Program-made: the position numbers and the translations under genes
Shown here: positions 45,205 to 48,229 of the stretch, one piece after another
How positions within the stretch are numbered: the first letter of the stretch is position 1
Layout of the letters: each line of letters starts with the position of its first letter
Assembly (NCBI GenBank): GCA_020354625.1
Contig: CP070651.1
Coordinates: 574,175 to 622,442 of the forward strand
Direction: 5' to 3'
DNA from: Trueperaceae bacterium
GTDB lineage: Bacteria; Deinococcota; Deinococci; Deinococcales; Trueperaceae
Length of the DNA stretch: 48,268 nucleotides
Notes under the pieces: generated by a model
What the model was told of the DNA's origin: nothing
Seen by the model: the letters and a program-made list of their open reading frames with translations, nothing else
Database searches by the model: none

Positions 45205-46458
45205 ATGGCGAAGATCGACGTCAAAAATCTCTATAAGATCTTTGGGCCTAGACCCCATGAGGTTCTGAAACATGCCAAAAAGGGGGCTCCAAAAGACGAG
45301 ATCCTGACCAAGACGGGTCACACCGTCGGGCTCACCGATATCAGCCTGAGCATAGAAGCACAGGAAACCTTTGTGGTGATGGGGCTTTCAGGGTGTGGAA
45401 AATCGACCTTCATTCGCTGCATCAACCGTTTGATCGAACCGACAGCCGGCGAGATCTCGATCGACGGTCGAGATGTGTTGGCGCTCAACAAGAGTGCTGT
45501 CAAAGCGCTGCGGCGGGAGAAGATGGGAATGGTCTTCCAGCGTTTTGCCCTCTTCCCACACAAAACTGTCCTTCAGAACGTGGCCTATGGACTCAACGTA
45601 CAGGGAGTTGCCAAGGACGAACGTCAGGAACGCGCCCTGCACTGGATCAATGCGGTTGGGCTCGATGGGTACGAGCACGCCCGACCGAACCAGTTGAGCG
45701 GAGGGATGCAACAACGCGTCGGTCTGGCTCGCGCGCTCTGCACCGATCCAGAAATCTTATTGATGGATGAGGCCTTTAGCGCCCTCGATCCGCTCATCCG
45801 CCGCGAGATGCAAGACGAGTTGATCCGCTTACAGAAGGAACTTCACAAGACGATTATCTTCATTACGCACGATCTCGACGAGGCGCTCCGCTTGGGAGAC
45901 CGGGTGGCGATCTTGAAAGACGGGCGTCTCATACAGGTAGGCACCCCGATCGAGATCGTGACCAATCCAGCAGATGACTACGTACGGGCGTTTGTTCGAG
46001 ATGTCAACCGGGCCCGGGTGCTAACCGCCAAGTCCATCATGGAAAAGACAGAAACCCTGCCAATCCACACCTCACCGCGGGAAGCCGCGAAGATCATGAC
46101 TTTGCAGCACCGAGCATTAGGTGTGGTCGTTGACAACGATCATCGCTACCGAGGGATCGTGAGCATGGCAGAGGCTTCGGCCGCGATCAAGCGTGGAGAG
46201 AACGACTTGCAAGGGGTAGTAAAGGAACGAGCGCCGACCATCGGTCCAGATACATACCTTACAGATCTTTTGAGCTTGTCCGCCGACAGTGCAGAGCCGA
46301 TCGTGGTACTCGATGACAGCGACCTGTATCTCGGTACGCTTTCGAGAAGCGCTGTGCTGACGGCTTTGGCGGGCAAGAGTGACATCGACGATAACCATAT
46401 CGGCTCTGACTCGAAAGGGCTAGTCGAAACCCCAGAGGACACCGGCGCCGCCGGGTGA
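45205..46458 (+). CDS. proV: Glycine betaine/proline ABC transporter ATP-binding protein with CBS domains
   Basis: A 417-residue ATPase of the ProV/OpuAA class. It begins with the class-specific IFGPRPHEVL segment, then Walker A GLSGCGKST, signature LSGGMQQRVGLARAL and Walker B ILLMDEAFSALDPLIRREMQ. Two CBS domains make up about residues 275-395 (RALGVVVDNDHRYRGIVSMA, EPIVVLDDSDLYLGTLSRSA); in this family they sense ionic strength or nucleotides. Full length for the class. The ATG at 45205 has AGGAGCC upstream. It ends the proXWV unit, 150 bases before a strong terminator. Confidence 0.95.
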   Translation: MAKIDVKNLYKIFGPRPHEVLKHAKKGAPKDEILTKTGHTVGLTDISLSIEAQETFVVMGLSGCGKSTFIRCINRLIEPTAGEISIDGRDVLALNKSAVKALRREKMGMVFQRFALFPHKTVLQNVAYGLNVQGVAKDERQERALHWINAVGLDGYEHARPNQLSGGMQQRVGLARALCTDPEILLMDEAFSALDPLIRREMQDELIRLQKELHKTIIFITHDLDEALRLGDRVAILKDGRLIQVGTPIEIVTNPADDYVRAFVRDVNRARVLTAKSIMEKTETLPIHTSPREAAKIMTLQHRALGVVVDNDHRYRGIVSMAEASAAIKRGENDLQGVVKERAPTIGPDTYLTDLLSLSADSAEPIVVLDDSDLYLGTLSRSAVLTALAGKSDIDDNHIGSDSKGLVETPEDTGAAG

Positions 46459-46511: not shown

Positions 46512-46543
46512 GTAAGATTTTCGTAAGAGAATGGCTCTATACT
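46512..46543 (+). promoter_or_regulatory. Promoter with an 11-bp-spaced direct repeat box
   Basis: GTAAGA occurs at 46512-46517 and 46523-46528, exactly 11 bases apart, within TTGTAAGATTT and TCGTAAGAGAA. This spacing is typical of sites bound by OmpR/PhoB-type regulators. A -10 box TATACT follows at 46538-46543, and the second half-site covers the place of a -35. No gene starts at the usual distance downstream. Confidence 0.6.
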
Positions 46544-46549
46544 TCATGT

Positions 46550-46635
46550 GTGGACTTGAGGTAATTCTCCCATCTCCTCATTCCCATTCTCTTCCGAAAG
46601 GGTTTCGTGACTCCCACACGAAACCCACTTTTTTT
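46550..46635 (+). ncRNA. Candidate small RNA, about 86 nt
   Basis: Between the promoter at 46512-46543 and the terminator ending at 46635 lies a stretch of about 86 bases without a credible ORF: the GTG at 46550 stops after four codons, and the ATG at 46546 is too close to the -10 box and would read through the terminator. The body is pyrimidine-rich (CTCCCATCTCCTCATTCCC), which could pair with purine-rich ribosome sites. It lies between proV and a convergent gene. Expression is not proven. Confidence 0.5.
46600..46635 (+). terminator. Rho-independent terminator
   Basis: A perfect 10-bp stem (46600-46609 with 46617-46626), loop ACTCCCA, is followed by AC and a run of seven T. It is the clearest intrinsic terminator of the window, and can serve both the small-RNA candidate and readthrough from proV. 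Confidence 0.92.
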
Positions 46636-46642
46636 GGTCGCT

Positions 46643-47701
46643 TCACCCGTTGATGGACACGTCGACGATCACGTTTCCACACGCTTCACCCGATTCGATG
46701 AGACGGTGCCCTTCAGCAGTATCCTCTAGGGGCAACGTCCCGTGAACGACCGGTTTCAACTCTCCTCGATCGAGCAGGTCGAGCACTTCCCGGAAGTCCT
46801 CACGGTTTCCCATGGGAACACCGAGAATTTGCCGGTATGACTGGTAGAGATCTCGAATGCTGATGTTTGGCGAATCCCCCATCGATGCCCCACACACCAC
46901 CATACGCCCCCCGATCGTTAGACTTCTCAGTGCGGGTAGCCAGGTCGATCCGCCGAGGGGATTGACGATCACATCGACCCCGTAACCGTCCGTCTCCTTT
47001 CGGACGACCGCCTCGAAGTTCTCACGATCGAGATCGATGACCCTATTGGCACCGAGCTTTTTCAAAGCCTGAGTATTCGTGAGGCCTCTTGCAGCGGCAT
47101 AGACAAACGAACCAAAACGGCGGGTGAGCGACAGAACAGCACTCCCCAGGGCATCGGTGGCACCGAGCACCAAAACCCGATCAGACGATTTCAGTCGCGC
47201 AGTTTTGATCACGCGCCAAGCAGTCGTATACGCGAGCGGTATAGCCGCTGCCTCCCACAAAGATACATGGTCTCCGAGTGGTTCGAGACTACTCGCCGGC
47301 ACACAACAGTAATCAGCTAGTCCACCACAAGAATCTTCGATAAAGATACGGGCGTCGTGACACATGGTGTCTTCTCCGCGCAAACAGGTCGGGCAGTATC
47401 CACAGCTTCTCGAAGGATAGACGATCACCCGGTCACCCTCACGCCAGCCGCTGACCCAGTCACCGACTTCGACGATCTCGCCAACCACATTCACCCCGGA
47501 AATAAAGGGGGGCTCGAGCGGCTTCAGACCCCAACCCGAAATACCTTGTCGAGAGAGCAGATCGATATCGCTGAGACCACACGCCAACACCCGCAAGATT
47601 ACATCTTTGGGTGTTTTGAGACTTGGTTGCGCTGCCTCCTCGATTACGATCCTATCGTAGCCACCATACTCGCGTACGACAGCAGCACGCATCATCGTCA
47701 T
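46643..47701 (-). CDS. Zinc-type alcohol dehydrogenase-like protein lacking a catalytic zinc ligand
   Basis: A 352-residue medium-chain dehydrogenase/reductase. The structural zinc site is intact (CGYCPTCLRGEDTMC). The nucleotide-binding domain has VLVLGATDALGSAVLSL and VDVIVNPLGG. At the catalytic zinc site, Cys is kept in LACGLSDID, but the conserved His of the GHE motif is replaced in GVNVVGEIVEVG, so zinc catalysis is doubtful; a quinone-reductase-like action is possible. I start at the ATG at 47701, which has GGGGAG upstream; two further ATGs follow within four codons, and the frame stays open to 47749. It is convergent with the pro operon. Confidence 0.83.
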   Translation of the reverse strand: MTMMRAAVVREYGGYDRIVIEEAAQPSLKTPKDVILRVLACGLSDIDLLSRQGISGWGLKPLEPPFISGVNVVGEIVEVGDWVSGWREGDRVIVYPSRSCGYCPTCLRGEDTMCHDARIFIEDSCGGLADYCCVPASSLEPLGDHVSLWEAAAIPLAYTTAWRVIKTARLKSSDRVLVLGATDALGSAVLSLTRRFGSFVYAAARGLTNTQALKKLGANRVIDLDRENFEAVVRKETDGYGVDVIVNPLGGSTWLPALRSLTIGGRMVVCGASMGDSPNISIRDLYQSYRQILGVPMGNREDFREVLDLLDRGELKPVVHGTLPLEDTAEGHRLIESGEACGNVIVDVSING

Positions 47702-48229
47702 AATCAGTATTCTCCCCACCCCAACACAGGGGACTAAATAATCCCACAACGTACGATCTACTCACCCGAATCACAATTAGCGGGTTCTCTGACCGAGAAC
47801 CACGTTCCAAATGGAACTAACCTTATACCAGGTCAAAAGACTTTCAAGATGTAATCTCGTTGCAAAGAATATCGACAGGATAGGCTGGCAAAGTCTAGTA
47901 ACAGATATTGTACCCCAAAGCGCCACCCCGTCGCCAAACTCCGTTACCCTTCCTCTCTCGGGGAGTAAGAATGACCGGCCTTCACCGTTCATAAAATGTC
48001 ACCCCGTCACAGGCCAGGGAACTAACCGATCGGCTCTGTGGGGTGCCAGACGTCAAAGTAAAACGCGCTACACTTGTGACCGGGAATCGTGAAAGAACTC
48101 CCGTCTCACTCTGGGGGCCGAGAAACGAGTGAGAACTCCTGGTGGGCGTGACCAACTCGCCTCTTCGACCGACGGAACTGCTTAGGGCTTGGATACAGAC
48201 GCTCTATTGCTGTGAAGTAAAGGTGTAGC
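47702..48229. other. Non-coding region before a partial gene
   Basis: About 530 bases with no credible gene. Short ORFs on both strands here lack ribosome sites and family features. Small inverted repeats are present: GGTTCTC/GAGAACC (47783-47789 with 47795-47801), GTTCC/GGAAC directly after it, and TCTCACTC/GAGTGAGA (48104-48111 with 48127-48134). No clear promoter was identified. Confidence 0.6.

Follow-up and report, generated by a model that had tools for sequence, protein, structure and literature searches.

Small RNAs with repeated C-rich loops can repress through pairing with ribosome sites, as illustrated by NfeR1 (alpha-r14) and B11/6C (PMC10746234, PMC10470900). In B11, either loop alone represses a target that has a G tract in its 5' UTR (PMC10470900). 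Alpha-r14, or the 'cuckoo' RNA, of the alphaproteobacteria carries the motif CCUCCUCCC in unpaired regions of several hairpins and is preceded by an RpoD -35/-10 pair, and 6C RNA/B11 of the mycobacteria forms two stem-loops with C-rich loops. The loops of 6C RNA hold runs of about six C. Within the Deinococcota, the small RNAs PprS and DsrO of Deinococcus radiodurans pair with mRNA, and the studies of them describe target stabilisation (pprM coding region, msrA) (PMC8217566, PMC9195949). In tandem boxes of the WalR/PhoB/CpxR type, about one helical turn separates two direct half-sites; the motif of Staphylococcus aureus WalR is TGTHH-N6-WGTNDD (PMC10746227).

The element described here lies in a window of 48,268 nucleotides (the whole stretch of DNA that was analysed) from a 4.29-Mb, single-contig genome of the Trueperaceae (Deinococcota). 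Rfam returned no match for the window at the gathering cut-off and none for the small-RNA family at E up to 1. Unlike alpha-r14, which comes from a different phylum, the Trueperaceae RNA has CUCCC(A) in place of CCUCCUCCC, carried as CUCCC/CCUCCC on two hairpins, and an 11-bp tandem activator box instead of a -35/-10 pair. It shares with 6C RNA the two stem-loops with C-rich loops, but has only three C in a row and is regulated by the tandem-repeat box. By these membership tests, the RNA belongs to neither alpha-r14 nor 6C. PprS and DsrO belong to the same phylum; for them the studies describe stabilised targets, and the Trueperaceae RNA is proposed to repress. The box resembles WalR/PhoB/CpxR-type boxes in its two direct half-sites and shares the 11-bp register of the WalR motif, which is similar to TGTAAG-N5-TGTAAG; its half-site GTAAGA and a putative regulon of pili, c-di-GMP and small RNAs set it apart. 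A search of the open-access literature on Truepera and small RNA found no paper on such RNAs, and the Deinococcota small-RNA studies that were found all concern Deinococcus.

Layout and conservation of the element

The preliminary description of this locus had placed an 11-bp-spaced GTAAGA repeat, a TATACT -10 box and the window's strongest intrinsic terminator around a stretch free of ORFs, and each of these parts is there. Direct reading locates the two head-to-tail half-sites at 46512-46517 and 46523-46528 of the forward strand (box, 46512-46528) and TATACT at 46538-46543, 9 nt past the second half-site and 12 nt ahead of GTGGA. A sigma-70 scan of the window did not list this promoter because a -35 hexamer is absent, the second GTAAGA repeat occupying its place. 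The small-RNA gene detected by the two models described below extends from 46550, its putative start, to 46635 on the forward strand and would give a transcript of about 85 nt; the predicted transcript 46550-46636 is more stable than dinucleotide shuffles (z = -4.2). One ORF of 40 aa spans this stretch, but it starts at 46531, upstream of the -10 box, so that the predicted transcript cannot carry it. Hairpin 1 (GAGG...CCUC, 46558-46579), recognised from the fold and from covariation over copies, has CUCCC in its loop (46567-46571) and an optional basal helix that pairs 46550-46553 with 46584-46587. It is followed by a single-stranded pyrimidine linker (46580-46599), in which the alignment of copies reveals a conserved CUCUUCCGAA. 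Hairpin 2 is the 10-bp terminator stem (GGGTTTCGTG-ACTCCCA-CACGAAACCC, 46600-46626), likewise marked by covariation, with the loop ACUCCCA (CUCCC at 46611-46615). Seven T at 46629-46635, read directly and recovered by the terminator scan, complete an intrinsic terminator (46600-46635) that an independent two-strand scan of the whole window ranked strongest (-14.8 kcal/mol and the best T-tract). Two genes flank the element: upstream, on the forward strand, the ATP-binding subunit of a betaine/proline/choline importer (45205-46458; NCBIfam TIGR01186 above cut-off) and downstream, convergent on the reverse strand, a zinc alcohol dehydrogenase-like protein (46643-47703).

An orphan small-RNA gene had been proposed, and comparison with relatives upholds that proposal. 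Searching with the DNA recovered a second copy 3.6 Mb away in this genome (75% identity) as well as three related loci from other genera. Two models, R1 (sequence only, based on five copies) and R2 (structured), each detect the element in 27 of the 39 Trueperaceae genomes; about a third of the family genomes lack it. R1 found no match across other families of the order, and two R2 matches in another family (E about 1e-3) were too weak to be accepted as homologues. Records matching the diagnostic pattern are, where named, Trueperaceae or otherwise labelled Deinococcota bacteria, and the family is, judged by these searches, not convincingly detected beyond the Trueperaceae. The conserved unit comprises the box, a TANNNT box whose distance is fixed (in most copies, at -12 from GTGGA), the GUGGA start, hairpin 1, the linker and hairpin 2, with weak T-tracts in homologues from GC-rich genomes. 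An unconserved element between conserved flanks had been named as evidence against a small RNA, and the opposite was found: box, -10, hairpins and CUCCC loops are kept while the neighbours vary. The element is thus very probably a genuine small-RNA gene, kept in most Trueperaceae genomes.

The second copy follows a gene whose protein we take, from reading it by eye, to be a GGDEF-type diguanylate cyclase. In four genera (g8, g16, g13 and g6), rpsA, the gene of ribosomal protein S1, follows the element on the same strand at a distance of 150-300 nt; in other genera a nearby gene encodes a 2-hydroxyacid dehydrogenase, a replication initiator or a solute-binding protein. The rpsA-upstream copies are at L068:1541-1828, L067/L101:374-450, L076:720-795 and L083:1508-1577, and the corresponding region of one genome holds two tandem RNA copies. 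Since the neighbours differ among genomes and the betaine importer is not conserved, the importer is incidental. A stress-related or osmotic role, which had been read from the importer, is consequently not supported by the sequence: the second copy and the homologues adjoin other genes, and the genes under the box belong to pilus, c-di-GMP and envelope functions.

Sequence comparison establishes the structure of the conserved RNA alongside its gene and promoter. In a structure-blind alignment of ten copies, 96% of the cells form standard pairs against 88% in shuffles, and seven pairs changed on both sides. When the alignment of 26 distinct copies was fitted to the structured model, the paired share of the cells was 96%; shuffles gave 81%, and sliding the partners by 1-3 columns left no more than 52%. 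In this model-fitted alignment, both-side changes occur in 13 of 17 pairs and in nine of the ten pairs of hairpin 2, where 97.7% of the cells are paired. The covariation seen after fitting agrees with that of the unfitted ten-copy alignment. Among the 23 core copies, which exclude three weak copies from a low-completeness genome (L092), CUCCC is present in loop 1 of all 23 and in loop 2 of 22, on stems that vary. The complement of CUCCC, GGGAG, forms the core of G-rich Shine-Dalgarno sites, and the loops may target such sites. The suggestion that a pyrimidine-rich RNA is suited to pairing with ribosome sites gains from this retention of the loops. At the expected start, (A/G)UGGA is found in 24 of 27 listed copies. 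In positions 46550-46564 and in the homologues, most copies can also be read as a leaderless ORF of two to eight codons (VDLR*, VDR*, MD*), a pattern that may reflect only the helices.

The GTAAGA box as a probable genome-wide switch

The suggested genome search for further GTAAGA-N5-GTAAGA sites returned 12 exact sites in the own genome, compared with none for a reversed control, and 34 compared with 4 when up to one mismatch was allowed. Summed across the 39 family genomes, the exact box occurs 63 times against 0 in the control. For the longer pattern GTAAGA-N5-GTAAGA-N10-TANNNT, a tolerance of up to two mismatches gave 30 matches against 1. Of 23 own-genome sites picked by the box alone (the window site included as one count here and in the terminator figures), 16 have TANNNT at a distance of 9-10 nt from the box (P about 6e-26); the frequency at random positions, taken from the same regions and uncorrected for intergenic composition, is 1.2%. 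Nine of the 23 are closely followed by an intrinsic terminator, against 3% at equally uncorrected random positions; none has one upstream on the same strand, and one has one on the opposite strand. The box shared by these sites is thereby established, and its sequence pattern marks it as the probable switch for a regulon.

At some sites up to six half-sites follow one another in 11-bp register, the layout to be expected if OmpR/PhoB-type regulators bind head to tail. The box sites also show a trait of OmpR/PhoB-type regulons, direct repeats in a 10-11-bp register upstream of the -10 that replace the -35, and the comparative evidence upholds a tandem direct-repeat activator box. Within positions 183000-190000 of the own genome (L039:2402-2462), six GTAAGA-like half-sites in 11-bp register precede a phosphotriesterase-family gene. 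The label 'PhoB/OmpR-like' given to the box stands as far as its geometry goes; beyond the geometry, no one of the nine OmpR-family regulators encoded in the genome is singled out. None of their genes has a box within 1.5 kb, and the seven of these proteins that were scanned scored below the NCBIfam cut-offs among the matches listed, so no regulator is named. One own-genome protein presumably resembles DrRRA. DrRRA was rejected as the regulator, its reported msrA site (CTCCCGGCGCCTGTCCCCTC, PMC9195949) being unlike GTAAGA.

Protein genes downstream of the box encode two prepilin-like proteins, a PilT-type ATPase, a PilB-type ATPase (in a PilB operon), a lytic transglycosylase, an RpoD-like sigma factor, a DsbH-type thioredoxin protein, two GGDEF-EAL proteins, an HD-domain protein and a receiver-domain protein. 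Sites ahead of the prepilin-like, PilB/PilT, GGDEF-EAL and HD-domain genes are at 3108649, 3109261, 2010813, 3645570, 200383, 4228162 and 1798650 (pilus and c-di-GMP loci L045, L043, L049, L158, L167 and L161), and in other genera the box precedes pilin-like leader sequences and a receiver protein. The regulon listed in this way, from sequence pattern only and so with some false sites among its members, looks like one of surface motility and c-di-GMP rather than of osmotic stress. The scanned genes downstream of the box include none for phosphate uptake, and a phosphate (Pho) regulon was rejected on this content. The box-driven sigma factor at 441555 (L041) has regions 1.2-4 and may give the box regulator a further way to act. 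A pilin-like gene that follows the box in G009 (L174:432-545) has a 5' UTR that is long and rich in C (CCACCCCCCACCCCCTCC), small-RNA-like in style.

Besides the two copies of this RNA, at least eight further sites lead predicted short transcripts bounded by a terminator: 187552 (minus strand), 385122, 1778006, 2218083 (minus strand), 2513443, 2916588, 2980912 and 3655286 (L039, L040, L042, L047, L052, L053, L044 and L050, respectively). Less certain candidates in the own genome are at 949004, 1087212 (minus strand), 2491604 (minus strand) and 3010741. Several of the box-driven short RNAs hold CCUCCC runs such as CCUCCCUCCCC, and the transcript at 2916588 is predicted to fold as a hairpin with such a C-rich run in its loop. 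The transcripts at 1778006 and 2980912 resemble each other. Eleven other box-driven loci had no Rfam match at E up to 0.5.

Candidate mode of action and competing explanations

The locus combines a promoter, a short non-coding predicted transcript, a terminator and conservation independent of its neighbours, as is characteristic of trans-acting small RNAs. The preferred reading, to which we assign a probability of about 0.75, is that of a stand-alone, trans-acting small RNA of the Trueperaceae of about 85 nt, made from a promoter activated by a response regulator, whose loops repress translation. The kind of regulator, activation over repression, transcription itself, the targets and the mode of action are what we infer, along the following lines. 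An OmpR/PhoB-type response regulator would bind the two GTAAGA half-sites overlapping the -35 position and recruit RNA polymerase to the TANNNT box. Transcription would begin about 7 nt past the -10 and terminate at hairpin 2. The two CUCCC loops and the open CUCUUCC stretch could then base-pair with target mRNAs at their G-rich Shine-Dalgarno regions, which would block translation. Duplex energies of the small RNA against the ribosome sites of the window were no better than those of the shuffled RNA, and the ribosome site of the alcohol dehydrogenase has an 8-base match to loop 1 that is not significant. The same box would control not only genes for type IV pili, c-di-GMP and the envelope but also more short RNAs that end at a terminator and are often rich in C; the box-driven RNAs are probably the repressing arm of a surface and motility regulon.

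The placement ahead of rpsA in four genera allows the RNA to be seen instead as a cis-acting leader or attenuator, a 5' leader (of rpsA in some genera) working through termination or through binding of S1, for which a pyrimidine-rich RNA could serve. Such a role is unlikely: in the window the gene that comes next runs in the opposite direction, so the RNA cannot be its leader; rpsA does not follow the second own copy or copies in other genera; and CUCCC persists in the loops whatever the context. The frequent proximity of rpsA, together with the conserved pyrimidine linker and the repeated motifs, would also suit an RNA that titrates a protein (S1 or another RNA-binding protein) and does not pair with mRNA; yet exact CUCCC in loops whose stems vary resembles an antisense seed, which makes titration rather improbable. 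It is very doubtful that the locus yields a small coding transcript whose leaderless 5' mini-ORF (GUG GAC UUG AGG UAA) is a product or a regulatory feature: the (A/G)UGGA start recurs and most copies reach an in-frame stop within the two to eight codons by differing routes, but several copies have none, and the conserved helices explain much of the pattern (GUGG can pair with CCAY, and GAGGUAA is stem). A mere bidirectional terminator beside a chance promoter-like sequence, as convergent flanking genes and a strong hairpin might suggest, is scarcely credible, since box, -10, 5' half and hairpin are kept as a unit in other gene contexts, and a chance promoter-terminator pair was rejected on this conservation.

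The small-RNA reading can be extended, tentatively and with somewhat less than even odds, to a two-handed switch in which one response regulator controls pilus and c-di-GMP genes along with at least nine small RNAs, of which several have an anti-Shine-Dalgarno design. The regulator would turn surface-motility genes on, while its RNAs would lower the translation of other genes; the RNA family would have arisen or moved independently of its neighbours, including to the region upstream of rpsA. The preliminary interpretation as a whole is partly supported, and the RNA family to which a reading of raw sequence has led is new and covaries strongly. Its promoter code, GTAAGA-N5-GTAAGA-N9/10-TANNNT, can be searched for in any member genome. 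If genes that share the box are also controlled together, one regulator would govern surface motility, c-di-GMP turnover and about ten short RNAs, several of anti-Shine-Dalgarno design.
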